Assembly (NCBI RefSeq): GCF_029962835.1
Contig: NC_080577.1
Location: 4,960,001 to 5,024,000 of the forward strand
Direction: 5' to 3'
Source: Magnolia sinica
Lineage: Eukaryota > Streptophyta > Magnoliopsida > Magnoliales > Magnoliaceae
Length of the DNA stretch: 64,000 nt
Position numbers and translations under genes: made by a program. Shown one piece after another: positions 5,040 through 54,379 of this stretch. Positions within the stretch are counted from its first letter, which is position 1. Each line of letters begins with the position of its first letter. The notes under the pieces are model-generated. The model had not been told where the DNA came from and searched no databases. It saw only the letters and a program-made list of their open reading frames with translations.

Positions 5040-8000
5040 AGGATCCATCATCCACATGACGATGCATCGGCCGTTACTCTGACCATTGCAAACCAAAGGG
5101 TGTTCCACATACTCGTCGACATAGGGTCATCGGCCGACATGTTGTTCACTCAGGCGTTCGACAGGATGGGTGTTGAGCGATCAGCGTTACGACCGGTTCG
5201 TACCCCGTTGGTCGGATTCTCGGGGGGACAGATACTCCCAGAGGGGATCATTTCACTGCCGCTCATAGCCGAAAATCCTCCATACCAAGCGACAACAATG
5301 GTTGATTTCCTGATAGTCGACCAATCGTTCGTGTACAACGCTATACTTGGTCGACCCTCTCTGAGTCTCCTCCAGGCCGTGGTATTTACATACCACCTCT
5401 CCATGAAATTTCTGACTGAATCAGGAGTAGGAGTCATCAAAGGAGATCAGCAGGACGCGAGATGTTGCTACATGATAGCTATAAAAATACCCACCGAGAA
5501 AGCACCAGCCAAAGTATCGATGATCGAGTCGCTAGACCCCCGGGTCGAGACGCACGAACGAGGGCAGTCAGTTGAAGATCTTGTCTCGGTGCCTTTGGTT
5601 GAGACAGACGAGTCCAAAACAATGCAAGTTGGCTCGTCTTTGCGATCTCCTTTGAAAGATAATTTGATAGCCATGCTCTGACGATATGCTGACGTATTTG
5701 CGTGGAGCCATGAAGATATGCAGGGAATTGACCCGTCAGTGATCACTCACCGACTCAATATCGATCCGACCTACCGACCAATTCGACAGAAAGCGACGAC
5801 CACTCGGCCCCGAAAGGTACGCTGTCATTGAAGAATAGGTTAGCAAGCTCCTCAAGGCAAAATTCATAGAAGCGATATACTACCCGGAATGGGTAGCTAA
5901 TGTCGTATTTGTGAAAAAAGCTAATGAGAAGTGGCGAGTCTGTATTGACTATACCGACCTAAATAAAGCCTGCCCGAAGGATAGTTTTCCTCTTCTGAGG
6001 ATAGACCAGTTGGTAGATAGTACTGCGAGGCATGAACTTCTTAACTTTATGGATGCGTATTCAGCGTATAATCAAATTGTAATGCATCAGTCCGATAAAT
6101 CTAAAACAACCTTTGTCACTGACAAAGGCCTTTATTGTTACCGTGTGATGCCATTTGGTTTGAAAAATGCTTGTGCGACTTATCAGAGATTGGTGAACAA
6201 AATCTTTGCTTAGCTGATCGGCCGAACCTGGAACTGTACGTTAACGACATGCTCGTCAAAAGTGTACACGCGGCCGACCACATAGCCAACCTAGAAGAAA
6301 TGTTCCTTACCTTACGTAAGTTCCGAATGAAACTGAACCTGAGCAAGTGCGCCTTTGGCATAAGCTCGGGAAAGTTCCTCAGTTTCTTGGTCAGTCAGCG
6401 AGGAATATAAGCAAATTCGAAAAAGATAAATGCCCTGCTTGACATGGAGTCTCCAAAAATGATTAAAGATATACAAAGACTGACTGGACGGGTAGCAGCA
6501 CTTAATCGTTTCCTGTCCAGAGCCACGGATAAATGTCTCCCGTTCTTCAGACAGTTAAAGGGATGACAAACGTTGGATTAGATGGAAGAGTGCGAAGCAG
6601 CGTTTCAGCAGTTAAAGTCTTATCTCGGATCTCCACCAATCTTATCGAAACCCGAGTCAGGAGAAACTCTGCTGCTGTACCTAGCGGTGTCCAAGGCAGC
6701 AGTTAGCTCGGCCCTGATACGTGAGCACGAAGGAAAGCAGCTGCTGGTTTACTACGTCAACAAAGTACTGTTACCGGTGGAGATGAGATACCCACTCTTG
6801 GAAAAGGTGACCCCAGTTCTAGTAGTTTCCTCACGCCGACTTCGACCATATTTCCAAGCCCATACCATCGTCGTTATGACCGATCTCCCACTGCGTCAAG
6901 TTCTACAGAAACCGGATGCATCCGGCCGACTTACGAAATAGGCGATCAAACTCAGCAAATTCGACATTCAATATAAGCCGAGAGTAGCAATCAAAGGGCA
7001 AGTCGTGGCCGACTTCATTGCTGAAGTAACACCACAAACCAACCCGATGATTGAGCATACAACCGAGCTTGTCGAAAAATTAACTACTGCTTTTCCCGCG
7101 TCATTGCCCGACCCAATACCTTGGAAGCTGTATGTCGACGGCTCCTCCAACTCTAAGGCAAGCGGGGCAGGAATAGTTCTGAAAACTCCAGATCAAACCT
7201 ACATGTAATATGCCTTAAGACTTGGATTTCAAGCTTTAAACAATACAGCAGAATATGAAGCGTTGTTGCTTGGCCTTCGACTTGTGGCCAACTTAGGTGT
7301 CAGGCATCTAAATATTTTCAGTGATTCTCAGCTAGTTGTTAACCAAGTTATCGGTGCATATCAAACACGGAAAGAACAATTAAAAGCGTATATGGAGAAA
7401 GCTAAAAAATTGATTAAAGGCTTTCAACGTTGTATCGTCACTCAAATCCCTCGGACAGAGAATGTCAAAGCCGACCTGTTAGCAAAACTCGCCTCCGCCG
7501 ACGAAGATGATATACCCAGGTGTGTTCCGATCGAGTATGTCGCTAAGGCCAGTATCGATGAACCAGTTAGCTCGATCATACATACGATCAACTCGAAACC
7601 TTCTTAGATTGATCCGATCGTCTGATATCTCAATAAGGGTGAGTTGCTTGAAGACCGCGCTGAGGCCCGACGATTAAAGGTCCGAGCCTCCCGTTATACC
7701 ATACTCAACGAGACGTTATACAAGAAAGGTTATTATGCTCTACTGCTGCGATGTTTAAACCCCGATAAAGTGAACTATGTACTACGAGAAATCCACGAAG
7801 GGATCTGCGGAAACCATTCAGGAGGACGGTCACTCGTGCATAAGGTATTGCATCAGGGATACTACTGGCCAACTATCCAACACGACACTCGTAAGCTCGT
7901 TCAAAAATGCGACAGATGTCAGAGATTCACAGTTTTTCCGAGACAACCTTCAGAAGCGCTGACACCTATGACTGGTCCTTGGTCCTTCGCATAATGGGGA

Positions 8001-9029: not shown

Positions 9030-11535
9030 CTTCAGTTAACGCTATTCTCGAGCTTCCCCAGAGCTGGTGTTAGTACCACAAATGGAGCCGATGATGATAC
9101 CAAAAACTGAGTTCCCAGCGGAGCTGGTGTTAGTACTAAAAATGGAGCCGATGATGATACCAAAAATTGAGTTCCCAGCGGAGCTAGTGTTAGTGCTAAA
9201 AATGGAGCCGATGATGGTACCAAAAATCGAGCTCCAAGCGGAGCCGATGATGGTACCAAAAACCGAGCTCTGCGGCTCTCAAGGGTCATTCGGAATGACC
9301 TCTGAAGCTTGAGCCGCTTCAGGCTCGGCCCCGGTACCACCCGCAACATCGTCAGGCTTGGACGCTTCAGTCGCCGGATCCTCGGGAGCCCTTCCTCAAA
9401 TTTTGAGAGATCAAGGTCGGAAAAAAATTGCTTCACCACTTAGATGCAAGCTTAGTACCCGCTCGCGTATAGGCGATCTCTTTCGTCTTCGAACTCCGAG
9501 ACTCAAGGAAGCCTTTTACAGCCTTCTCTCCCGTGTCTTTCTTGGCCACCTCGAGCGCTGCTTTTGTATCGGCCTTCAGCCGGGTTAGCTTCTCCTCGGA
9601 GGCATCACGAACCAGATAGAGTTGCCGACTCTCATCAATAGCCCCTTTCAGCAGCTAAGCCATCCGAGTACATTCAGCTCTAACGTCTTCAGTCGCCTTC
9701 CGAGCCAAGCTCAACTCGTCAGTCAAATTGCCGACCCTAGTTGAGGCAATCTCAAGTTGAGCCTCTGCCTCTGTTGTCCGTCTCTAAGCCGCTTCGACAT
9801 CCGTCACATTTTTCTGAGCCTTCTCAGCCTCGGTTAGGTCTACGCTGGCTCTCAATAGGTAAGGAGCAAGCTGCACAATAAAAAAGAAGAAAAAAATAAC
9901 TAAGTCCGATTAAAGCCAAAAGAGACAAGGAGCTAGAGGATAAAATTTAAAATCCCACCTGAAGCAAGACCTTTGCAGTATGGGAGAGTATCCGACTCCC
10001 AGGAGCTTCGAAGATAGAAGCGAATTCCCTTTCGCTCCTGGCAGAAACAGCCCAAGGCACCATATCCGCTACGGCCCGACAGAAGGATGATTGCTCCTGC
10101 GGAGCCGACTCCTCCCTTGAACTCTCCCCTCTCTGCTCCTCTCTTCGCCCCGAGACTCGTTCGGTAACAAGTCCTGGCTCAAGAGTCGCTCGGGACTCGA
10201 CAAGAACGTCCTCCGCCCTCTCTTCGGGGTCAGAAAGATCGACGACAGGCGGGACGGCCGAGGTAGTGGCGACTAGGGCAAAGGGTTCCGCAACCGAGGG
10301 AGCAGTCTTAGCCTTCTTCAGGGGCCGAGGCTCTGACAGAAGGACTGACCTGGGAGGAGCCTTTAACTTCGACGGCCTCAAGAGGGGTCGAGCTTTGGCC
10401 ATTTCTGTGTCGGATAAAATGCAGAGTCAGAAAAATTCAAGAAGGATGTGCCTGAATAATTCAAAGTTATCTGTCACGGACGAGTCTAGGCCCGAGAGAA
10501 GAAGACGCTCCGGCTGTAAGAGGGACTTCCAAGACCTGTCTTCCGGGCTCAACGTCCACAGGTCTCTGATCCGAGCTAAAACGTTGGCTGCTAGCTTCGA
10601 TTTTTTCTTGGAGATATCTGCAGAAGACGTTCAGTTAGACTCAAGAGGAGTTTAACAAAACAAGACGAGGGAAAAGGCGTGTCGAGTCACCTGCTTTAGA
10701 GAACACCTGGGGAAGGAGGGATTCGAATAACCCATGCTCGGCAGTTTTTCAGCGACCGCATGCCTAGAACCACCTCTCTCTCCAGTACTTGTTAGTGGTA
10801 GGAGGGTCAGTTATCAAAGAACTACCCTTGTTCCGCTAAGCATTCAAAAAATACCAGCCGGGCTGCGAAGTGTTCGGGTGAACTTGGTATAGATAGAGGA
10901 ACTCGTCCATGGTCAGTGGAGGATGCTTTACCTCAGCCCACAACACTGCACATCCAAACAAGTTCCTCCACCCATTTGGGAATATCTGCCCGGGAGCAAT
11001 TCTGAGCCGGGAAAGAAAATCTCGAACAATAGGTTGTAAGGGTAGACGCAAACCACATTGCATGGCGACTTGAAAAATTGCAACTATCCCAAGAGGGGGA
11101 TGGTTGGGCAATTCATTCAGAAGCGAAAGTTGAAAAATTACTGAGTTAGGGACATGATACCCTATTCGGATCCTATTTAAATCCGTCTCAGTCAAAACTG
11201 AGGAAACCGACCCCTTTTCTTCATCTCCGACCTCCTCACTCTCGGCAGCCTCTCCTTCTTCAGCTGTCGACTCATCAAATCGAGTCAATCTCCATAGGGG
11301 GACCGACTCAGTGGTTCCCCCAAACTCGGTCCTCATCGGTCTCCTGAGAAGAGCCGACTCAGAGGTTCCTAATTCTTCCTCCTCTTCCTCTAAGTCATCC
11401 CCAGGGAAAAAGGGGGTGGGCCTGCTCGGGGCATGTCTCAAGACAGAGGGGCCCTCCGGAGCAGGGCGTTCCACTGGACAACCTAGTAGTGAGCTGGAAA
11501 GTCTCATTGGCACTCATCGCCATCTCCGCCAATAA
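9030..11535 (-). pseudogene. antisense coding region of the Tat element
   Basis: On the strand opposite to gag-pol, open frames with protein-like composition fill the space between integrase and the 3' LTR. The upstream part (about 10836-11513) contains an acidic Glu/Ser-rich stretch followed by a conserved-looking block with FQVAMQCGLRLPLQP, IAPGQIFPNGWR and PGWYF motifs. That block resembles the 'putative gypsy type transposon' domain (Pfam Transposase_28 family) as I know it. The middle part (about 9947-10402) is low-complexity and charged, and the 3' part looks coiled-coil. Antisense genes at this position are known in Retand-like Tat elements; their role is unclear. Fossil condition. Confidence 0.7.
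9061..9280. repeat. 60-bp tandem repeat inside the Tat element
   Basis: Three consecutive 60-bp units begin at 9061, 9121 and 9181, followed by a shortened unit near 9241. They lie in the 3' part of the antisense coding region and would give repeats of about 20 residues. The copies differ at only a few positions. Confidence 0.85.
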
Positions 11536-35192: not shown

Positions 35193-38100
35193 GTAATCCC
35201 CAGTTTCATATTTTCAATCCAAACCCTAAGGGCTCTTTTGGCAGCATGGATTTAGAGGGATTTGTCGTTTTTTTTTTTTTTTTTTTTTTTTGCATTCCCA
35301 CCTCAAAGCTAATTTACAAAATGCACACAATTCCGCAGGTTGTAAAATTCACTGGATTCCACAGGATATAAAATCCATGCTGCCAAACGAGTCCTAACTC
35401 TCTCTCTCTCTCTCATCGTATTTCTCTGAGTTCTAATGTTTCTCATGCTCATGGAGAAATTTGTCTTGCATTTGACTCTTTTTTATCCTTTGTAATGCTT
35501 CCACATTTCTGATATCGTTTTTTTACCTTTTCGTATTTCCGAATTAGCACTAGATTTTTTTTAAAAAAAAAATTAAATCAGATCTGTTGTGGTACATTGA
35601 TTGTTTTCTTCACTCTTTATGGGATTTCAAGGAACTCTTTAGAAGGGAAGCTGATTTAATAAGAACGTCCTTGTGTGTTTATTTTTTTAAAGGAAACTTA
35701 ATTCAAATGAGAAGAAGAGCACAATGTCCATCAAATGAGAGGGTAAGATGAACATGGTATATAAACGCAAATCGTATCGAGGGAATGTTCATCGCAAGAG
35801 AAGAAATCTGCTGTTAGTACCAAAATTATAGACCCTTTATGAAATACTCCTTTGCTAACTGGAACCCTGGCTACCGGCAGTTGTAGGAAGAACACTGGTA
35901 CCAAATCTCAAACCCCCTGTGTTTTCTGTCCCAAATCCTGTGATCCAGATTATGGGTCATGTGTGATTCAGGTTGCTATTACTACTCATCCAAAATTATG
36001 GATCTACATCTTTCAAAAAAAAAAAGAAGGAAAAGAAAAGAAAAGAAAAGAAAGGTTCTATACTCCTAGTGTAGATTAATTCTTATATCTATCTGTACTG
36101 TAGAGGCGGTATTGGGGGAAAAAATGATATTTAGAGAAGCAGAATTCTGGGGTGCAGCTTAGTGAAGAGGGGAAAAAGAGAGAGTATGCACAGTTATTTG
36201 GATGTAAAGAAGGGCAGCTCCCATCACGTTACCTTGGCTTGCCTTTGTGTAGTGGGAAACTGGTGAAACCTTTATGGAACTCTGTGTTGGAGAGATTCCA
36301 ACAGAAGAGCAAACACTTGTCATTTTGGGGTCCCATTATGTTCATTAAAGCAGATCTTTCCAATATGCTATTGTACCTCATGCCGTTATTCTGTTGCCAT
36401 GCTATCGTAAGAAGAAGAAATTTCATCTAGTCAATTGGATCGAGGTGTGCAACCCAAAGGAGAAAGGGGGTCTTGGCATAATATTGCCGAAATTGTTCAA
36501 TTTAGGATTACATGTCAAGTGTTTGGGAGAAAAGGGACAGCTTGTGGAACAATGTTCTCTCTTGCAAATACGGCGAGAAAGATAGAAGGTGGTTCACAAT
36601 GTCATCATCTTCTTACAGAGCTTCAAGAATATGGCAAGCAGTTCTTAAAGTCATGAATCAATTTAGGGCGGGAATCTCCTTTGTTTAGGTGATGGGGCTC
36701 GTATCAGGTTTTGGGAGGACAAGTGGTGTGGTCTGTTTGTCTTGCAGTTCCACAGTTGTACTAGGTGGCTATTTGGATAGATACATACATATACCCATAC
36801 AACTGTACGTACAATTGTACATAAGCTATAGATTATCTTAGACTTCATTAGTTGTACATACGTGTAACTTACACGTAATGCTCTTATGTACAATTTAGGT
36901 ATGTTAATGGGATATTACATACAAGCTTTTAACAATATAGTCGCTAAAATTATCATGGTATTAGAGCCTAATCTGGGCTCTGATATGGATATCGACAATT
37001 GGTAGTTTAGATGCACATTGATGTGAGTGCACATTGGTTTTTATTTCCAGATCCAGTTTGCTAACCATAATTGGATATCCAATCTAATTAGAATATGATA
37101 ATGGAAAAGAAATAGGTCCGACTAGAAAGGCTTGGTGCTCAACAAATTCAGTTAGAAAAGTTGGAGAAATTAGAAAGGAAGTTAGATCTAACAGCATCGG
37201 TGGTGATATGGGTTGCGCAATTAGATTGGGCAATGCTAATAGATGTTAGAAGTTTGGATGAAAATTTGGTAGCACAAAGAGATAGAGGATTCATGAGGCA
37301 ACAAAGTTGGTTCAAATTATGATAGGAATAGGAAAGAACAATATGTTGGAATGAAGGTGCACCATGCACATAATTTGCTCCCACTTGCAGAGTGCCAAAC
37401 ACAAACTAAAAGAAAACAAACTTATGGCTCGAACACCCGTCTTCTCTTAGGCTACCGATGGTGAATATTGCAAAGGAGGTTCCCAAATTTGATAGGCATG
37501 GCTAATGAGGTCGATTGTGGTGGAATCCGGTAATAAAGGTGGCAATAGATGTCGGATCTGGCACTAGCCATGGGTGTAGGGATGTCTTCAGGCAATAATA
37601 TTGGTAGACTTTGGATCTAAAACTGGTAGTGGGCAAAGACTAGTTCTAGATCTAGGATTTGAAGGTTGGAGTCAGTCACGATGGTTGGGGCACTAAAGAT
37701 CTGGGCTTGGAACAAAATTCGAGTGATAGGTTTGGATTTGAGGATGGTAATGTGGGTTCGATGCCAAGATGGGCTGCAATGGAGGCGGAGGACATCGGGA
37801 ACAATTTGTTGGAGAGTGCATGGGTAGATCTGACGAAAACAGAAAGGGATTTCATGATGGTTATTGGTTTTGGGTCGTAGGAGTTACTTTTAGGTTGTAG
37901 GAGACACAGGTTTAGAGATCGTTGTAGATCATGAAGGTTTGGATCTGGGATTGTAGAGGCGAGGGATTCCAGATGGTGATGTTGGAGACTATCGGAGGCG
38001 ACAATCTTAATAGATCCGAGGTTGTAGTTGCAGAGATCTAGTTTTGGACCTATTGTTGGAGATGCAACTAATGCATGATTATAACACATGATTCGTCATT

Positions 38101-41100
38101 AGAATCGACGAATGTCAAAGGTGTAGATGATGGCGATGGTTTCTGGTTGTGGGATCCGACAAATGCTGGTGGTTGTAGACGAAGGGCCAAACAATTGTGG
38201 TAGCTGTGAGCATATGAGAGACGAACAAGAATAGATGGGAGTAGATGCGAGAATCAGATATCCTCCTGGTGGTAATGCCGGTTGCTTTGGTGTTTCAGAT
38301 CCCTGTTCGTGGGCTCTAGTGCTAACAAACGGATCAGATTGAAGTTGATAATCATGAGATCTGGGATGAACAATACTACCAAGAAGGATGGTTCAAATAG
38401 GTTGTAGATGTGGAGATGGAGATGAATGGTGATTAGATGTGCGAAATTTCAATGAGGAAGAAGGCCGTTGATTTTGGTTTGAATAGGGACTGATGGATGA
38501 ACAATACTACTAAGAAGGATGGCTCAAATAGGTTGTAGATGTGGAGATGGAGATGGATGGTGATTAGATGTGCAAATTTTCAAAGAGGAATAAAGCCGTT
38601 GATTTTGGTTTGAATAGGGACCGACTGTCTAGATTAGACTTTAATATCATGATAGTTTAAGGGACTATATTGCTAAAAGCTTGTATGTGGTATTTCATTG
38701 AGATATCCAGTGTTTGAATTGTCGACGAGAAATCGATAATATCGGCGATATTATCGGTATCGTTGAACCGGCGATACCGAAACCCCAAGTTTTCTTTTCT
38801 CTTCTAAATGTTGATGAAATATCGGTGATATTTTCGATTTTATCGAAAAAATAGCTATTGTTCTCCTTATTATTGAAAAAAATTGAAATAAATATAAAAA
38901 TATATATACAAAAAAGATCTCTTACCTTCTTTTTCTCCCGATCTACCTGCGGAAGTGGATTTTGGCTAGATTTAGTGGGCCAATCGCTGTTGATAGCTCT
39001 GAATTTTCTGAGATAAGAAAACCCTTTTAAAAAACCCTTTTGTTTTCTTCAAAGAAAGAGATTTGAAAAAGAACTTGATTTCACCAAGATTTACGGAGAT
39101 TTCAGTTCGGATTTGAAAAAGAAAAAGATAAATTTCTGGAAAGATTTTTTACGGAAGATGAGATTGATTGCGATTTTCCGGAGAAGAGGAGAAATTTCGT
39201 AAAAACGAAATCTCTCTCACGTCCGGGAGGGGATTAGCTACTGGCGGGTTGAGTATACTCACAGTCACAGGTTGAGTAGCGAGACTAGCGACTGAAGTGA
39301 CGTCGGCAAGTTCCGTGGGCCCCACCATGATGTATGTTTTGCATCCACACCTTCCATCCATTTGGAGAGATCATTTTAGGGCAATATCCAAAGAATGAGT
39401 TAAATCCAAAGCTCTAGTGGACCCCAACACAAAAAACAGTGGGACAGTGACACCCACCGTTAAAAACTTCTAAAGGCCACAAAAGTTTTAGATCAAGCAG
39501 ATATTTGTGTTTTCCCTTATTTAATGTCTTTTTTAACTTTTGAACAGGTTGGATTTCAAATAAACATATGATGGGCCTTAGGATAGTTTCAACGGTGGGA
39601 ATCACTCTCCCTGCTGTTTTCTTTGGTGGGGTCCACAATAGATTTTTATTTGATTCATTCTTTGGTTCATACCCTAAAATGATATCTAAAAATGGATGGA
39701 CGGTGTGGATATAACATATACATCATAGTGGGGCCGCAGAACTTGGTGACGTCACTTCATTAGCCGACTGGCTACTCAACTTGTTAGTATCTATCTAATC
39801 CACGTCCTCTCACACCAGCTGTATAGCTGCTGTATACGTAAGCAAGTTCTGTGGGTCTGATCACAAGGTATTTGTTATATCAAAATCGTCCATCAATTTG
39901 GCGAGCTCTCTTAAGGCTTGAGACGAAAAATAAGACAAATCTAACTATCATGTGGACCACACTGCAAAAAGCAGTGGGAGATTGAACGTCTACCATTGAA
40001 ACCCTTTTTGGGGTCACAGAAGTTTTGGATCAATATGAAATTTGTTTTTCCTCTTTATTTAGGTCTTTGTGACCTTATGAACAGATTGGATGGAAAATAA
40101 ACATTATGGTGGGCCCTACGAATTTTTTAACAGTGAAAATCATTATCTCCGCTGCTATTTGTGGTATGGTCCTGATGATCTTTGGACATGATTCATTTTT
40201 TGGATAATGCTCTAAAATGATCTCTAAAAATAGATGAACGATGTAGATATAATAAATACATTACTGTGGGGCCCATGTAACTTTGATCTCCTTTGAACCG
40301 TTCGTACAACTCGGAGCTCGAGCAACGTCAGAGCACGTCTTCGCACGACACGAACCTGCAGCAGCTATATAGCTAGTGTGTGGTACACCAGCCAATCCGC
40401 TTCCAGTTTTAAGGGAATGGAATCCGCTTCCAATTTAATGGTGGGATTTAATCGCTGTTGTTTCCTTTGATGTGGTCCACTTGAGATTTGGAACTACCTC
40501 ATTTTTTGGACCATGTACTAAAATGATATGCTAAAATGGATTAATGGAGTTGATTTCTCGCATATATCATGGTGGGCCCACGGAACACTCTCTAGTAGCC
40601 ACCTCGTTATTCACAACATGATAAAACACATGGGATATGGTGGGTACCACAAAGTCCTTACACCACCTGGAGGACTTGATTTGGCTAGTGACGTTGCCAC
40701 TATCAAGATGGCTAGTGGTTGGTGCTATGTGGGCCTAATCATGATGTATTTATTTATCCATGCTGTCCATCTATTTTTTCAGATAATTTTAGATCTTGAT
40801 CCAAAACATCAAGCACATATAACTCTCAGGTGGAACACACCACAAGAAATAGTAGCAATTGAATGTCCACCATTAGAAACCTCCTAGGGTTCAATGTAAT
40901 GTTTATTTGACATCCAACCTGTTGATTAGGTTATACAAACTAGTTTGATACAAAATTTGTGGCCCTTGAGAAGTTTTTAATGGTGTGCATTCAATCAACA
41001 CTGTCTTGTGATGTGGTTCACTTGAGATTTGGATCTATCCAATTTTTGGGCTTATACCATGAAATGATCTGGAAAGTTGAATGGATGCGTCAATATGTCA

Positions 41101-43135
41101 AACAAGTGCCATATCCAAGCCATCAATCACGAAGTATACCATAGATTCCATGTCCCAAGAAAGGTGTACTTTTTTAGTTCATTAACTTTTACATGTCCTT
41201 ATTATTATATGTTAACAGCATTGTATTATATGAACTCATTTTGATTACAATTGGAGCGATTTCTTATGGCAGCATATGTTTTTTGGGTCCCATTAAATGA
41301 AAACTTATTATTTAATGCATTTTTTTTGGTATTTTTTTAATTCCTAAATATGCAAATATGTGTATTTAGGCATGCCCTGAAGTTTTACTGAAAAATTCCA
41401 TCATTTTCCCCATTAGTCGTCATTTTTTTTTATTTTCTGCATTTCCGGTTATCGGCGATAACGATAATATATCTTTATCTCCAGTCAGTGGAACTTGTAG
41501 TGATACCGACAACTCGAACACTGGAGATATCTAAATTATATAAAAGGGCATTATGTGTATCCTATGCGTATGTACAATTAATGAAATCTAAAATAACATC
41601 TAGCTTATGTACAACTTTATGGGTATGCATATGTATCTATGCCAACAGTGGTGATCATTGCTACATGCACCTTGAGGGAGGGGGAGCAAATGGTGTGGAA
41701 TCCTACCTTCGGAAGGGTTCTCCTAGATGTGGAGATTAATGAATATATAAGGATGTTGGAAATGCTTCACAATCATGGAAATCTCATCTTGAAAAGAGAT
41801 ATATGGGTTTGGAAATTTCGTCAAAGTGGATCTTATATGGTGAGATCCTTTCACTCGGCTCTTCAAAACCCCCACTTGCAACTTCAAAAGGATTTGATAC
41901 TTTACATTTGGAAGCACCTAGGTCCTCGCTTGCTAGCGTTTGGTTGGCTTATTGGCAAAAACAAGATCCTAACAATTGATAACTTAAGAAATCGACTGAT
42001 GATGTTTCCTCATGGATGCATCCTTTGCTTGAAAGATGAGGAAAATGCGGACCGTCTCTTCTTGTAGTGCTCTTTTTCCTGGAAAGTGTGGAATAGGTTT
42101 TTTGAGTTGCTGGACACTCACTGGTTCATGCATAGTAAGCGCTCAGATTTGCTAGAAATGTGGCATTTCGCTAGAAAATGAAGGAAGAAAATGAAGATGT
42201 GGTGCTTGGTGCTTTTGTCCATAATATGGTCAATTTGGTTGGAGCAAAATGGTTGAAAATGCAATGAAGAATCCACATGCCCAAAATCAAATGTTTCACA
42301 AGGCTACATGGTTGGTTATGGAATCAGTTAGGTTGGATGCAATGTTCAATAGTAGCATGGTAGAAGCTTTTTAGGGCAGTTGGGGGAATTCCTCTTTTTA
42401 TTGTTAGCCGGTTTCTCATCATTCTTTTGTTATCCTTTCTTTTGTTTTCTCTTCAATAAAATTTTCAGTTAATCTTATAAAAAGAATAGAAAAAAGAAAA
42501 ATTAGAATGTGGAGATTTATGCAACATCATACATACATATATAGAATATTATGCATGTGACCTATACTAATAATTTACCATTTCATATTTAAATCACTTT
42601 ATCAATTCATATATAGAATGTTGTTCTTTTTCTTCTTGTTCTTAATTTTCTGTTTTTGGCTAGAGTCTGTTTTGTCACTTTCTCAGCGGCCCTTCTCTCT
42701 CTGCTTTGTTTTGTTTCGCTTTTTCCCCTTTTAATGATATTGCAAGTTTCCTCTCAAAAATAAAAAAATAAAAAATAAATCAATTCATATATAAAACTGT
42801 AATTTATTTACCTAGTGCATGTACTGAATGGACCCACCTTATATTACCCTTGGAGTACCACACATTGGAGAAGTAATTTACTGGATATCTGTTCCCATAC
42901 CTTGTACCAGAAGGACCTATGATCTAGGAAACCCTGGGCTGAAGGCTGCATAGAAACCCATAAAGATAGCTCTGATCGGCCAAACTGTAACAGAAATTAG
43001 CTCCTATATCAGCATCAACATCGAAATTAAATTTTCCTGGAGCACCCCAGCCCAAGCTTGGCTGTTTGTTGTTTATTTCCCCAAAAGAAACCTTAAAATA
43101 AATAAAAATAAAAAAATAAAATTAAAGTTATAATT

Positions 43136-43166
<31 letters not shown>

Positions 43167-46100
43167 CACGAGTAGACTTGGGAGAGTGGCGAGCTGAGTT
43201 GAGTTGACTGGGATAGTCCATTGCTCATCAAGTCCCCTCGTAATAAAGTTTTTGGTAGAGTTGTGTCAAATTTGATCGATTTGAGTGCCACTAAAAAAAA
43301 AATTGATCGATTCGAGTGAAGTTCTTTCAAGTTTTCAAAATGTGTCATAGACTGATCTTGAACTTTGCTGCTTAGAAACACATCAAGTCCGTAATCCTGT
43401 TTACATTAAAATTAAGCACTATGGTTCCTAGATCTTCCTTGATGCCCAGGTTGTTGCATTCCTTGAGTATCCAAAAAATGATTCTCTTTCGAATGTATTT
43501 CCACCATTTTATGCACACTCCGCCAAACAATTGTCCCAACTCCTACCTTTCTCTCTTATAAAAAGAGTTATCAAGTTTGATAAACACCATTTTTTCTTCA
43601 TACAAGCAATCGTATACTAGCTCCTTGAAAGCCTAAAAATAGCTTCCTTCCAAGTTTGGTGCAACACCAATTTCACTCCATCCAAGCAATCCTAATGTAC
43701 CTCCTTGAAAACCTAGAAGTAGCTTGTTTCCAAGTTTGCTGAAATGCCAGGTACAAGCAATCCTATAGCACCTCCTTGAAAACCTAAAAGTAGCTTGTCT
43801 TCAAGTTTAGCGAAACACCAATTCCACTTCATACAAGCAATCTTTTGGCACCTCCTTGTGAACCTACATGTAGCAGGTTTGAGGCATGATTTGTGCCAAT
43901 GTTGTTCGAGGGTCGAACAAAGGGGGTTCCGTTAGAACTGAAGCCTTGTGTCAGTAGGTTGTGCCTGCATGGAGAGGTTGATCTTCATGTAGATGTAAGG
44001 ACTGTCACCAATATTTTTCTTGTTTCAAGATACCTAGTCCTGCTCTGGGCTTTTCAGTTAGCAACTTTTGACAGCCATTTGGTAGTGCCACAGGTTTTTT
44101 TGTTGAAGACTCAACTAATCCAGCATATTAGGGCAAGAGTGCTTCATCATGTCAAGGATGCTCATATTTTGGAAACCTCATTGCTGGAGAATATCTCATT
44201 GTGACCTGCCATGGGTATCAAAATGTTCATAGATTTGATGCAGAGATTGGAAGTGATTTGAGATTGCTATCCAAAGACCCTGCCAGGCAGGCAGGCAATT
44301 GATCCAGTTGTCATTTTGGTCACCATTATTCTAGTTGCTATTGTGGGTGTATTTCGATGTTGACATGGTGGCTCTTGCTTCGTCTAAGCTGACAGTCCAG
44401 TACTGGTCATGGCATGTTGTGAATCTTCAAGGATTTTATGACCTCTCCCGCACTTTTCTATAGAAAGAGGCACTCTTAGTCGATTCAACTTGTTTAGAAG
44501 CAAAAGAAGAGACAACTATCCTCAAGTTGTCTTGTCTTTGTCCCTCTTCTCAGTCATTTCCTTAATCTTGAGCTGTCAGGCTTGGTTCAGCCTGTTTGCT
44601 TCTAGTATCAGCATCTTCCTTTTTTTTAGTATTCTTTTAGCTAGTCTACTTAGAATTCCATAAATTCTAAAGAAGCGTACCCCAATTTGAATAGAACTCA
44701 TGTATCCTATGTAGCAGAATCATCATCATCGGTGTGAAAATGCCCCTGCATTAATCACCCTCCGCTCTGATACCACTTTGATGCAAGACAATTAACCACT
44801 TGCTCTAAAAGCTCAAACTGATAGAGCATGGCGAATCAATCCCTTTTATCTCATAGCCCAGGCCCCACATCTCATGAGTTAGGACCTCGGCCGAACCCCC
44901 CTTGTGGACCCCACTTCACATGGGTCACACGAACACCACCCGCCTTACACGGGTGGGGCCCGCCTCACATGGATTGCCCACCCCGAGTGTGCCCCAGCAT
45001 TCCACAGGCCACCCCACTCGAGCCCGTTTTGAAAATGTCCCTGCATTATAGCTCTTGGGGCAAGTTTCGAGGCCCAGGCCGTGGCCCTATAGGGCCTGCT
45101 GCTTGGCCCATTGCGACCCCTAGAAGAGCATACATTTGTCGAGGAGTTTCATTTTGGTCATAATAGTCCATGCATTGGAATAAATAACTTGTGCTCTCTT
45201 CATATTTCACTTCTTATGCTGTATTATAGCTTTGGCGAATATTATCCCCTGCATATCTCTAAAAATCGAGATCAAATTGTATTTGATCATGTCTTCTCTT
45301 GTCAATATCATTTTTTCTTCTAAAGGATGAAAATGGTTGAATTCTTGGTATTGTTAGCTCATGTAAGAATCTAGCTATTTCTTTGCAGGTCTTGTTGACA
45401 GAGTTTCGAAGCCTTCCTCCATTATTTCAAGAATCGCCTAATGCTATTCATGAGCTGACACTTGCAAGTAATAGTCTTAAACGCCTTTTTGTTATGCTTT
45501 GTCTTTCCTCCAGTATGACATAGTAGGAAGTGTTCCTAAAGCATCCAGTTTGTGTGGGTGATGTCTGTATTTTTTTAAATTTTTTATTCACAGAAGATCG
45601 GGATTTTCTTGGCTTTTATTACTCTTCTTTATTTTCTGTGCACTCGCCGGTCAAATAAACCAACTTTCTTTTCCAAAGGAACAAATAACGAATCTTATCA
45701 TGTAAAAGAAGTCTGGATTGTTTCAATAATTTCACAATAATTTTATCCACGAGAAAGAGTTTCGAAGGAGCACAGTAATCAGAGTGGAATTTCTGCCATT
45801 TCACTAATCTTTCTCTTCACGTGAGGCAATGATACATCTAACTAGAAACTCCTTATGGCCCTCGTAAGAGCTTCACTGGTGTCTCATGCTCAACGGGGCA
45901 AACTAATCTTAAAATTTTCTCAGGCCCTGCCAGAAACTGTGGCTTGAATGAAGTGGAAGCCTGGGCCTTGCTTTGCAGATTGACAATCTTTCACAGTTTT
46001 TTTAATGGTCCATCATGCTTGAGGGAAACTCTTGTTATTCAGTGGGTGATCTCTGGATCTTTCATTGTAAGGTAGCAGATACATTAAGAGGTCTGAGTGT

Positions 46101-52900: not shown

Positions 52901-54379
52901 ATTTGAGACAGCAGTAATGGTTTTACAAGTATTTTATCAAACACCTTCTAAGCAACATAAAAATCAAGAAAAAAAGGATATTGGTTTCATATACATACCT
53001 TCCTTGCCACCAGCAACACTTCTTTGATTCATTTCATTAAACACTTGGTGAGCAACATCAATATCAAAGTAACTGAGTCACCGAACTGGTTCGATCCGAG
53101 TTCGATTCGAGCTGGGTTCGAGTCGAGCTGGGGCCAGCTCGAACTGGGCTCAAACTCAGCTTCGAACCAAGTCGAATCAAGCTTTTTCGAGTTGAGTCGA
53201 GCGAGCTAACCGAGCTAGCTTGGTTCGTGTACACCTCTAGGTAGAGGTGGGGTTTCAATGGTGAGAGTTGATTGTTAGGAAGTATGGACTTCAAGAATTG
53301 GGGTGGTGGACTAAGTCTTCTTCGCTATACAGGACCTCGCATGTATGGAAAGCGATGGCCTCAATAAAACATAAAGTATGGGAATGGATTGGCTTCTTAT
53401 TGGGGAATGGAGAGAAAATTAGATTTTGGGAGGACGGGTGGGTGGGAGACCAAAAATTGAGCCATCTTTATCCACAATTAACGGGGATCTCGGTTGAGGA
53501 GGGGTTGAGGGTAGCTAGATGTTTTTCAGTAGTTGGGGAGGAGGTAGTCTGGGCACCGCGGTGCAGGTGGGATTTAGGTGATGAAGAGATTTGTGGAGCT
53601 TATTTCATTGTTGGAGAAGTTGCCACTTTTCAGTGATATCCCTAGCTCTCTCAAATATGGATTCCATGATATGGCCAAGAGAGACAACATTTTCTTACTA
53701 AAATCCTTCTACATGGTTCTAAGTGGGGCCAATTCTAAAGATGGGAATTGAACTCATGTCCATGGGGAGTAAACCCACTACCAAAGCCATGTTTGCCCAG
53801 ACTGACAGGTACAAAACCCTATAATTTAAGGCACTAAATTTTAAGAAAACACAATAATTCAGCACATATAATGTACAATTTAAAGCACATAACACTTATT
53901 TAGTTGAGCACGTATAATGCACTAATTTAAAACACCCTTAGGGAAGATCTCCAGAAAAATATTGAAAAAATGTTTTTTTTTCCTGGGGTGTCATCAAATT
54001 TTTTTTTTTTTCATGTATATTGATGGTACAGTGTGCTTACTTCAAATGACAGTTACCAGTATCTCGTGACATTGAAAATATTATGCAATATTGGGGATAT
54101 CATCAATAACAACCACCGATGAGATTTATTTTTTTAAATCATATCCTGCATCTCTATCACTGACCCTGGATATAGATAATATTAGCTGATATCACTGATG
54201 AGGGTGAAATTCATTTCTGTAATGACCGTTGCTTGCAGGAGCATTCGGAGTGGGAGATAAAGAATGGGTGTGTTTTTTTCCAGAAGGCGAAAGAATCTGC
54301 ACCTTGCAAGGAGATACCATCCCTGCAACTCATCAATCAGACTCTGAGTTATGCAAGGGAGTTGGAGCGAATCGTATGA
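35088..54379 (+). CDS. 26S proteasome regulatory subunit RPN12 (lid), six exons
   Basis: Six exons (35088-35192, 45389-45467, 47525-47627, 48889-49152, 49259-49370, 54239-54379) give 804 bp and 267 residues, the same length as Arabidopsis RPN12a as I recall it, and colinear with it. Landmarks: VSQLFERFKAAF at the N-terminus, YEHAVVLSVKAEDQDAFERD, GLNLLRLLVQNRIAEFHTEL, KHAVELEQSFMEGAYNRVL, DLLAKTVRDEIAGCSEKAYDY, and the C-terminus LINQTLSYARELERIV. RPN12 is the small PCI-type subunit that completes assembly of the 19S lid and its joining to the base, in nucleus and cytosol. All splice phases match. Intron 4 is GC-AG. Introns 1 (10.2 kb) and 5 (4.9 kb) are swollen by transposons. No disabling change is seen in the coding exons, so the gene looks functional. 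Confidence 0.97.
35230..35394. mobile_element. Tourist-like (PIF/Harbinger) MITE in RPN12 intron 1
   Basis: 165 bp, 37 bp past the exon 1 donor. The inverted ends match at 18 of 20 positions (GGGCTCTTTTGGCAGCATGG against GGACTCGTTTGGCAGCATGG). A 3-bp TAA target duplication lies at 35227-35229 and 35395-35397. TWA duplication and GGG/GGA ends fit PIF/Harbinger. The interior has a poly(T) run. Confidence 0.85.
36140..36769 (+). mobile_element. L1-type LINE fragment, upstream half
   Basis: The translated sequence matches the region downstream of the LINE reverse transcriptase core: SRYLGLPLCSGKL, WNSVLERFQQKSKHLSFWG, NWIEVCNPKEKGGLGI, then ARIRFWEDKWCG near 36690-36725. More than one frame is needed, so it carries old frameshifts. 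It is 5'-truncated (no endonuclease or RT core) and cut at 36769 by the LTR-like element. The other half resumes at 41648. Confidence 0.85.
38365..38626. repeat. 131-bp tandem duplication
   Basis: The block starting GATGAACAATACTAC at 38365 is repeated starting at 38496 and runs to about 38626. The copies share GGTTGTAGATGTGGAGATGG and GTTGATTTTGGTTTGAATAG words and differ by a few bases. It lies inside the LTR-like element. Confidence 0.85.
39222..39810. repeat. long-TIR element, copy 7
   Basis: The arms pair across the whole length: GGTTGAGTAGCGAGACTAGC and GAAGTGACGTCGGCAAGTTC at the left, with inverse partners GCCGACTGGCTACTCAAC and GACGTCACTTCATTAGCC at the right. The GGGCCCCACCATGATGTATG and GGACGGTGTGGATATAAC core words are present, as is the central GTTGGATTTCAAATAAACAT. 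Near-complete. Confidence 0.82.
39815..40412. repeat. long-TIR element, copy 8
   Basis: The left arm (AGCTGTATAGCTGCTGTATA, GCAAGTTCTGTGGGTC) pairs with the right arm (GCAGCAGCTATATAGCTAG, GTGGGGCCCATGTAAC). The central GATTGGATGGAAAATAAAC is present. It sits immediately beside copy 7 and partly truncates at its left end. Confidence 0.78.
40440..40610. repeat. long-TIR element, copy 9 (right half only)
   Basis: Begins at the word TTTCCTTTGATGTGGTCC and runs through TGAGATTTGGAACTACC to CATATATCATGGTGGGCCC. The left arm is absent. Confidence 0.7.
40722..41100. repeat. long-TIR element, copy 10
   Basis: Left arm: GTGGGCCTAATCATGATG, CCATGCTGTCCATCTATT. The centre is shortened (a 'hybrid' of GTAATGTTTATTTGACATCC). 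Right arm: TGATGTGGTTCACTTGAG, GGATCTATCCAATTTTTGG. Divergent copy inside the hAT element. Confidence 0.7.
41648..42490 (+). mobile_element. L1-type LINE fragment, downstream half and 3' end
   Basis: The translated sequence is the zinc-binding C-terminal module of plant LINE ORF2: WNPTFGRVLLDVEINEY, WVWKFRQSGSYMVRSFH, LGPRLLAFGWLIGKNK, GCILCLKDEENADRLFL and then, past an in-frame stop at 42066, SFSWKVWNRFFELLD. The 3' end has TTCAATAAAATTTTC and an A-rich tail at about 42475-42505. Continuous in domain order with 36140-36769, so they are two halves of one insertion. Confidence 0.85.
42616..42778 (+). mobile_element. short retroposed insertion, 163 bp
   Basis: Flanked by a perfect 15-bp target duplication ATCAATTCATATATA (42601-42615 and 42779-42793) and ending in an A-rich AAAATAAAAAAATAAAAAA tail. 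These are marks of target-primed reverse transcription. The body (TGCTTTGTTTTGTTTCGC, CCCCTTTTAATGATATT) looks like the extreme 3' end of a LINE. No promoter boxes for a SINE were identified. Confidence 0.85.
43571..43875. repeat. tandem repeat, about 71-80 bp units
   Basis: The word A/CCAAGCAATC recurs at 43602, 43682, 43753 and 43833, each followed by an ACCTCCTTGAAAACCTA-like and a CAAGTTTGGTGAAACACC-like block. About 3.8 units, moderately diverged, in RPN12 intron 1. Confidence 0.82.
44764..45110 (-). mobile_element. copia-type LTR relic, minus strand
   Basis: GCTCTGATACCA at 44764-44775 is the exact complement of TGGTATCAGAGC, the initiator-Met tRNA primer site of copia elements. The adjoining sequence from about 44778, starting TTGATGCAAGACAATTAACC and going into a C-rich stretch, would be the LTR of an element reading on the minus strand. 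Its outer end and the second LTR were not found, and the probable interior to the left (about 43880-44763) has no recognised domain. Fossil. Confidence 0.55.
45389..45467 (+). CDS. RPN12 exon 2
   Basis: Acceptor TTTGCAG before 45389. It encodes VLLTEFRSLPPLFQESPNAI then HELTLA and one base of an Arg codon. Donor GTAATA at 45468, phase 1. Confidence 0.95.
46720..46860. repeat. degenerate short repeats in RPN12 intron 2
   Basis: The words GCCGAGTGCT, GGACAAGGAAGGACAA and GGACAGGGAAGGACAA recur every 25-45 bp. This creates a spurious Arg/Gly-rich open frame. Non-coding. Confidence 0.6.
46917..46994. repeat. (TA)39 microsatellite
   Basis: Thirty-nine uninterrupted TA units in RPN12 intron 2. 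The length as assembled may be inexact because such arrays slip. Confidence 0.95.
46995..47200. repeat. partial relative of the GAGCTCG-rich hAT elements
   Basis: Contains GAGTTGAGCTCGAGCTCGG, AAGCGAGTTAACCAAGCTAG and ends CATGTCCAGATCTA, matching the subterminal language of the elements at 15277 and 52697. The left end seems replaced by the TA array. No target duplication found. Confidence 0.5.
47525..47627 (+). CDS. RPN12 exon 3
   Basis: Acceptor ATTTCAG before 47525 completes AGA (Arg). It encodes DIYEHAVVLSVKAEDQDAFE and onward to KPYYTDT. Donor TG|GTATAC at 47628, phase 2. Confidence 0.95.
48000..48245 (+). mobile_element. LINE 3'-end fragment in RPN12 intron 3
   Basis: GATGCTTTTCAGGGTAGCTG and GGGGGATTCTTC then GATAAAATTTCCAGTTAGCC closely match the 3' end of the LINE at 42350-42480 (GGGCAGTTGGGGGAATTCC, AATAAAATTTTCAGTTAATC). 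A 5'-truncated copy of the same or a sister family. Confidence 0.7.
48889..49152 (+). CDS. RPN12 exon 4
   Basis: Acceptor GGAACAG before 48889 completes TGT (Cys). It encodes the helical PCI-region core from GIIPPSPQEYPIL to MDLLAKTV plus two bases of Arg. The donor after CAG at 49152 is GCAATA, a non-canonical GC. Confidence 0.93.
49259..49370 (+). CDS. RPN12 exon 5
   Basis: Acceptor ACTTGCAG before 49259 completes AGA (Arg). It encodes DEIAGCSEKAYDYLSINDAK to ELSEYITE. Donor GAG|GTAAGG at 49371, phase 0. Confidence 0.95.
49907..50058. repeat. 84-bp tandem duplication
   Basis: GACTTAGAGATAAAGAAACC at 49907 is repeated as GACTTAGAAGTTAAGAAACC at 49991. Both are followed by CCTTGCAAAGAAGA(G/T)GAATG and a CT-rich array. 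In RPN12 intron 5. Confidence 0.8.
50069..50270. repeat. 101-bp tandem duplication
   Basis: Two copies starting CTGAAAATCTTTAAATTGCA at 50069 and 50170, about 92 % identical, each ending GGGTCCAAGTGAAAAAAGGG. In RPN12 intron 5. Confidence 0.85.
50905..53640 (+). mobile_element. L1-type LINE, internally deleted, in RPN12 intron 5
   Basis: An ORF1-like segment (about 50905-51437) ends GACCAATGA, overlapping by four bases the ATG (51434) of ORF2. ORF2 opens with the endonuclease domain: MKIMSWNVTGLGC, ILAFQETKLEG, AIYGP, WCMGGDFNVV, then FTWSN and LDQFLF near 51970-52030, with at least one frameshift at about 51790 and a stop at 51969-51971. The RT core is missing. The sequence jumps at about 52200-52270 to the post-RT region (RTYLGLPLGIGTLPKHLWDR, SLGGKINLIKTVMSDFPIYY, REDFLWSG) and, after the hAT insertion at 52697-53239, to the GEKIRFWEDGWVGDQKL block. 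The 3' end is absent past about 53640. Dead. Confidence 0.88.
52697..53239. mobile_element. non-autonomous hAT-type element inside a LINE, 543 bp
   Basis: Ends TAGGGGTGTACA and, read from the right, TAGAGGTGTACA (11 of 12). A perfect 8-bp target duplication GGTAGAGG lies at 52689-52696 and 53240-53247. Removing the element and one duplication restores continuous LINE sequence, an internal proof of the ends. The interior near the ends is GAGCTCG/AGCTCGA-rich. Same length as the element at 1500-2042, though the inner repeats differ. Confidence 0.92.
53645..54238. other. distal part of RPN12 intron 5
   Basis: AT-rich, with poly(T) runs near 53972-54012 and no recognisable element. It ends in the exon 6 acceptor. 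Confidence 0.55.
54239..54379 (+). CDS. RPN12 exon 6 (terminal)
   Basis: Acceptor GCTTGCAG before 54239. It encodes EHSEWEIKNGCVFFQKAKES to the C-terminal RELERIV, with TGA at 54377-54379. Confidence 0.96.
   Translation, partial: EHSEWEIKNGCVFFQKAKESAPCKEIPSLQLINQTLSYARELERIV

Follow-up and report, generated by a model that had tools for sequence, protein, structure and literature searches.

An old, apparently single-copy retroelement fragment in Magnolia sinica with its terminal repeats in opposite orientation

How does a fragment of a plant retroelement come to have long terminal repeats (LTRs) that face in opposite directions, each with something resembling a tRNA primer site on its inner side? 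The question is raised by a unit in a 64,000-nucleotide stretch of the Magnolia sinica genome (C5:4960001-5024000), the whole of which we call the window; the genome that we searched comprises 1.84 Gb in 127 contigs. This fragment of a plant retroelement is old and, to all appearance, present as a single copy, with its terminal repeats in opposite orientation. On balance we think it probable that this is a defective DNA copy of an LTR retroelement, folded back in its interior, that integrated as one unit by two U3-type LTR ends. An earlier note on this DNA had offered three origins: an aberrant product of reverse transcription, an inversion after insertion, or an unusual type of element. The first of these, taken as a product of aberrant reverse transcription or joining, is the best fit; a simple inversion does not fit, and a new type of element is not supported. 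The ends of the unit are laid out as follows.

36770..36955, plus strand: left LTR (LTR_A), 186 bp, from arm alignment and shuffles
36956..36968, plus strand: primer-site-like TGGTATTAGAGCC, 12/13 to the initiator-Met primer site
38637..38649, minus strand: primer-site-like TGATATTAAAGTC of the right arm, 9/13
38650..38699, minus strand: right LTR (LTR_B), inner 50 nt, from arm alignment
38700..38707: 8 bp, GAGATATC, duplicated around the hAT-like insert, with perfect copies on both sides
38708..41523: hAT-like insert inside LTR_B, 2,816 bp, ends CAGTGTT, nested inverted repeats
41524..41647, minus strand: right LTR (LTR_B), outer 124 nt, which begin with the second 8-bp hAT duplication

Read on the reverse strand, the right arm runs from 41647 to 41524 and on from 38699 to 38650, 174 nt in total. 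We aligned the arms as two pieces, leaving the hAT-like insert in place, and shuffled each piece 500 times. In inverted orientation the pieces score 96 and 85 (shuffle maxima 36 and 31) and in direct orientation 30 and 18. The earlier note had described a 186-bp left end and a roughly 174-bp right end as inverted copies of one another, and scores beyond every shuffle uphold that description; a small correction concerns the termini, which are TG...CA in the right arm and TA...CA in the left. The arms are about 81% identical over 194 aligned positions (about three of them counted twice), with 26 transitions and 10 transversions (K2P 0.22), and the similarity stops at 36974/38631, 19 nt beyond the LTR ends. 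LTR retrotransposons carry direct long terminal repeats and a polypurine tract inside the 3′ LTR; here the repeats are inverted, and both arms read as 5′-type, with primer-site-like sequence inside.

The insert that divides the right arm is rich in nested inverted and direct repeats that are seen again elsewhere in the window and in 200 kb beside it; in those 200 kb the insert finds 241 blastn matches (E 0.001). At the same threshold and over the same 200 kb, the arms, the interiors of the unit and its LINE flanks have no match at all. A hAT of the same family also sits inside a related LTR elsewhere in the genome, at a locus we call L038 (3061-5410, with the duplication AATGGAAT read by eye). 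We had entertained the idea that the insertion was common to both places by descent, and dropped it because the L038 duplication, AATGGAAT, and that of the window, GATATCTC in the same sense, lie 8 bp apart. Judged from these duplications, the two hATs would have inserted independently, at almost the same point of the LTR.

Primer sites were scored against what we take to be the initiator-Met tRNA sequence. The earlier note placed sequence like such a site inward of both arms, and it is there. On the left it lies directly inside the LTR (36956-36968), as expected of a 5′ LTR, and its score of 12/13 is reached at 2 of the 127,974 window positions, counting both strands. All four differences in the right-hand TGATATTAAAGTC are C-to-T or G-to-A; because 126 window positions also reach 9/13, this second site persuades by its position alone. 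The left site is followed after 6 to 7 nt by its own inverted copy (36956-36985, GAGCC TAATCTG GGCTC), a possible hairpin noticed by eye, and the right arm has a shorter GTC/GAC version, also seen by eye. A further initiator-Met-type site (44763-44775, minus strand, 12/13) stands beside G+C-rich sequence unlike the arms and probably belongs to another LTR element.

The inner sites bear on two explanations. A simple later inversion of the 3′ LTR we rejected, because the right arm has primer-site-like sequence on its inside and a 5′ LTR terminus on its outside. It is also very improbable, in our estimation, that the unit is a DNA transposon with terminal inverted repeats of about 186 bp whose resemblance to a primer site arose by chance. 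Such an element would account for the inverted ends and their short duplication, and for interior frames among which those tested gave no retroelement protein; it would leave unexplained why a 12/13 primer site falls precisely where the left repeat stops, why the ends are TG...CA, and why L038 has TGGTATTAGAGC after its own LTR-like end. Duplications made by transposons with terminal inverted repeats are 8 bp for hAT, 9 bp for MULE and 3 bp for CACTA elements, and the 5 bp at the unit matches none of these.

Did the two ends arrive together? The unit lies in a decayed LINE, and the answer comes from other copies of that LINE.

36101..36764, plus strand: host on the 5′ side, a decayed L1-like LINE reverse-transcriptase ORF, from translations, with several frame changes
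36765..36769: left target-site duplication GTGGC, compared with LINE copies
41648..41652: right target-site duplication GTGGT, compared with LINE copies
41653..42067, plus strand: host LINE, continuation; Pfam zf-RVT, E 2.1e-8

By translation the upstream LINE frames extend to 36768, and the downstream frame that matches Pfam zf-RVT spans 41597-42067. Related frames occur at 53400 in the window and in L022, L019 (compared as protein only), L030, L031, L033 and L034; protein queries with the LINE found no relative in viral_contigs, genome_contigs or plasmids. The window fragment at 53400-53606 is a second LINE, distantly related to the host. A genome search with the downstream flank returned the locus itself and eight further places, identities ranging over 68-100%, and in four of those eight (L030, L031, L033 and L034) we read the junction. 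Matches in L028, L029, L032 and L035 start 34 to 91 bases inside the query; L028 and L032 are 0.5 kb apart on the same contig.

Random 5-mers agree at no fewer than four of five positions with a probability of 0.019, and the LINE copies strengthen the case that GTGGC and GTGGT at the two flanks are a true duplication. The motif GTGGC/GTGGT is present once in L030, L031, L033 and L034, whereas the locus has GTGGC before the unit and GTGGT after it. We aligned left flanks to three of these four copies and right flanks to all four. Aligned separately, the flanks overlap by exactly GTGGT at L031 85-89 and L030 92-96, although with L030 the fit of the left flank is weak (score 6). For L034, the right flank begins at GTGGT; an upstream interruption of this copy kept its left flank out of the comparison. 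On L033 the left flank reaches as far as GTGGC, and the first seven bases of the right flank are placed elsewhere in a poor fit. The GTG codon phase on both sides is, by eye, that of L033. The more distant LINEs, at 53400 and L022, have other bases at the GTGGY position. Compared with its relatives the host LINE lacks 13 nt (against L031), 15 nt (L030 and, by eye, L033) or 16 nt (L034, in two gaps), and this gap starts 0-3 nt inside the right duplication (41653-41660). Our own first counter-reading had been a chance duplication with 11-22 nt missing from the LINE at the junction; we gave it up because the closer copies show GTGGC/GTGGT there, with the gap just inside.

From these comparisons the 5-bp flanking duplication looks real, and its length is within the 4-6 bp typical of LTR retrotransposons. 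The earlier note was therefore right to see a near-matching duplication around the whole unit, and its suggestion that the unit inserted as one piece gains support from the uninterrupted copies: because the duplication fits them, two 5′-type (U3) LTR ends probably entered as one piece. Three other explanations are to be weighed against this evidence. The first has two independent insertions in opposite directions, close together in the LINE, followed by loss of both 3′ halves. Recombination of separate insertions makes up the vast majority of complexes in plants, and these lack a shared flanking duplication (PMC1950507); the exact 5-bp overlap on L031 and L030, and the need for two hits at one site, make this course very improbable here. 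The second, a little harder still to credit than a transposon with a chance primer site, would have reverse-transcribed pieces captured by end joining at a double-strand break, the 5 bp being chance or fill-in. The loss of 13-16 nt of LINE sequence beside the right junction would suit it; that both outer ends are LTR termini, and that the duplication fits uninterrupted LINE copies, would not. The third, an assembly error at the inverted arm, is extremely improbable: inverted repeats are prone to mis-joining, but the LINE continues on both sides with its 5-bp duplication, and the arms can be told apart in an assembly because they differ by about 19%.

What, then, lies between the arms?

36969..36982: putative junction of the inverted LTR and primer site with the 5′ half; ATCT common at the switch, by eye
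36983..37110, minus strand as the presumed native one: segment X, 70% to L038:5737-5865
37111..37519: interior, with no Pfam match in the open frames tested
37520..38630, minus strand: leader-like interior, C-rich on the reverse strand; the genome search returned only itself
38364..38624, minus strand: tandem duplication in the leader, two copies, 131-bp spacing, 93% identical

Among the interior frames tested, Pfam gave no match to a retroelement protein or a recombinase. A gag-like reading on the plus strand may exist in 37111..37519. The left and right interiors align with a score of 20, the shuffle median also being 20; at this chance similarity they look unlike two copies of one 5′ end. 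Tandem repetition occurs elsewhere in the window too, at 9061-9268, with a 60-bp spacing.

The earlier note had proposed looking for other inverted copies in the source genome. In our genome search, which skips very common words, no other copy of the arms turned up: the left arm matched itself and two pieces of the right arm, the right outer arm matched itself and the left arm, and the 1,144-bp right interior matched only itself. The left interior (565 bp) matched itself and C12:23725742-23725852, at 72% over query positions 41-150. No ordinary full-length relative with direct LTRs was seen in the genome searches. Since the LINE query recovered copies down to 68% identity and very common words are skipped, rarity of the unit is likely, short of proof.

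The left interior thus has a single relative, L038. Here an LTR-like 3′ end at 5403-5454 gives way at 5455 to TGGTATTAGAGC; counting 282 nt from where this primer site starts, one comes to the equivalent of X (5737-5865), on the strand opposite to the LTR match. Under a permissive alignment X alone stood out from the shuffles (291 against 161), which led us to stricter scoring, under which X (70% over 36983-37110) scores 246 with a shuffle maximum of 108. The LTR end of L038 scores 122 against the left arm (shuffle maximum 103) and 85 against the inner piece of the right arm (shuffle 95% value 86, maximum 132); because 85 falls under the 95% value, the link to the right arm is weak. The upstream parts of the LTR, the C-rich leaders, 37111-37520 and the LINE flanks of L038 and the unit are alike at chance level. 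Between 37161-37246 and L038:6279-6367 there is a marginal similarity (E 0.12) that runs the other way round and is under the shuffle 95% value, and in the 4.1 kb after the X segment no second copy of the LTR was found in either orientation. By these alignments L038 is a distant relative of which the 5′ end alone is visible.

In L038, X stands downstream of the LTR end and primer site, oriented as it is here towards LTR_B. If that order is the ordinary one, the sequence from 38649 down to 36983 is one 5′ half that goes with the right arm, to which the left arm has been added as an inverted LTR with its primer site. This orientation weighs against the chief rival, in which two 5′ half cDNAs of related elements had their U3 ends integrated in trans at one 5-bp staggered site, the broken inner ends being united afterwards by end joining. 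We consider that course unlikely, while granting that it would explain the unlike interiors, the 81% identity of the arms and the target duplication, and that PMC8742673 has separate viral DNA ends being paired in vitro. It would also lead one to expect two parent subfamilies, yet the genome search found no further copies of the arms.

The fold-back that we favour could have come about as follows. The interior would be a single 5′ half which, from right to left, consists of LTR_B, its primer site, the C-rich leader and X. A strand carrying the LTR, the primer site and about 6 nt more would have crossed over to the opposite strand at X, with ATCT as the microhomology, either during reverse transcription or by microhomology end joining. 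At the join (36969-36982) the CTAATCT of the left arm and the L038-like CAGATCTGG have ATCT in common, by eye. The product would be a linear DNA ending in U3 on either side, and the element's integrase would have joined both of these ends to a 5-bp staggered target, long decay following. The joining of two like ends has a precedent in vitro: PMC8742673 reports that HIV integrase joins pairs of viral ends, mostly with 5-bp duplications. Replication by the ordinary cycle is not expected of such a product because a 3′ LTR in the right orientation is absent. Plus-strand strong-stop DNA extends past the LTR, and the 19-nt extension of the arms is close to that extent. Had such a product been copied from the tRNA, the sequence beyond the primer match should be that of the tRNA. 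The 6 nt that follow the 13-nt match in both arms have no likeness to it, and for that reason we do not claim a strong-stop intermediate.

Several observations weigh against the fold-back. The orientation of X depends on one relative, whose leader is unlike and whose LTR was not refound downstream, and the LTR end of that relative matches the left arm better than the right. A gag-like reading on the opposite strand would favour two joined 5′ halves. The 13-16-nt LINE gap adjoins the right duplication, and the flank alignments include the weak left-flank fit to L030 and the misplaced right-flank bases on L033. Lastly, in the in vitro work of PMC8742673 HIV integrase preferred pairs of U5 ends over U3/U5 or U3/U3, so that the U3 pair was not the favoured one there.

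Does the unit belong to a class already described? DIRS elements have inverted terminal repeats and a tyrosine recombinase, and are not known to have a tRNA primer site or a target duplication. The unit is like them in its inverted ends and unlike them in having a primer site and a target duplication, and no recombinase match appeared in the frames tested. The right arm is followed in order by primer site and leader, as at the 5′ end of an ordinary plant LTR retroelement, from which the unit departs in having an inverted LTR and primer site in place of the 3′ LTR. A close precedent is that of Sabot and Schulman (2007; PMC1950507), who described four plant complexes (two from Triticeae, one from rice, one from maize), in each of which three LTRs lie within one target duplication, and proposed abnormal template switching. 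A single 5-bp duplication around the whole is common to those complexes and ours; theirs have three LTRs in a row with the outer ones highly alike, whereas here there are two inverted LTRs, 81% alike possibly through age, and no 3′ half. Two like LTR ends and a 5-bp duplication also recall concerted integration by HIV-1 integrase (PMC8742673), but that work was done in vitro with U5 pairs preferred, and here we are dealing with a presumed U3 pair, a plant and another integrase. Titles and abstracts in the open-access literature that we searched yielded one paper on Dictyostelium and no inverted-LTR insertion in a plant, and we make no claim that none is in print.

A new type of element with inverted LTRs is not supported by these sequence comparisons, because the genome searches, in which very common words are skipped, found no further copy of the arms or the right interior, and no inverted LTR was detected beyond X in L038. 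It is very improbable, to our minds, that fold-back DNAs bearing U3 on each end arise again and again and serve as regular integrase substrates, forming a small class of their own with L038 as a second, older member. The unit is more likely to be a faulty copy of a rare sort than a mobile element of a new kind. Software that annotates genomes on the expectation of direct LTRs would probably fail to detect units like this one, and how frequent they are in genomes is a question that is easily tested. If the fold-back is true, the Magnolia unit would be in vivo evidence that the integrase of a plant retroelement attached a pair of U3 ends to a single staggered target, and it would mean that an inverted-LTR DNA fit to integrate can arise when strands are switched close to the primer site.
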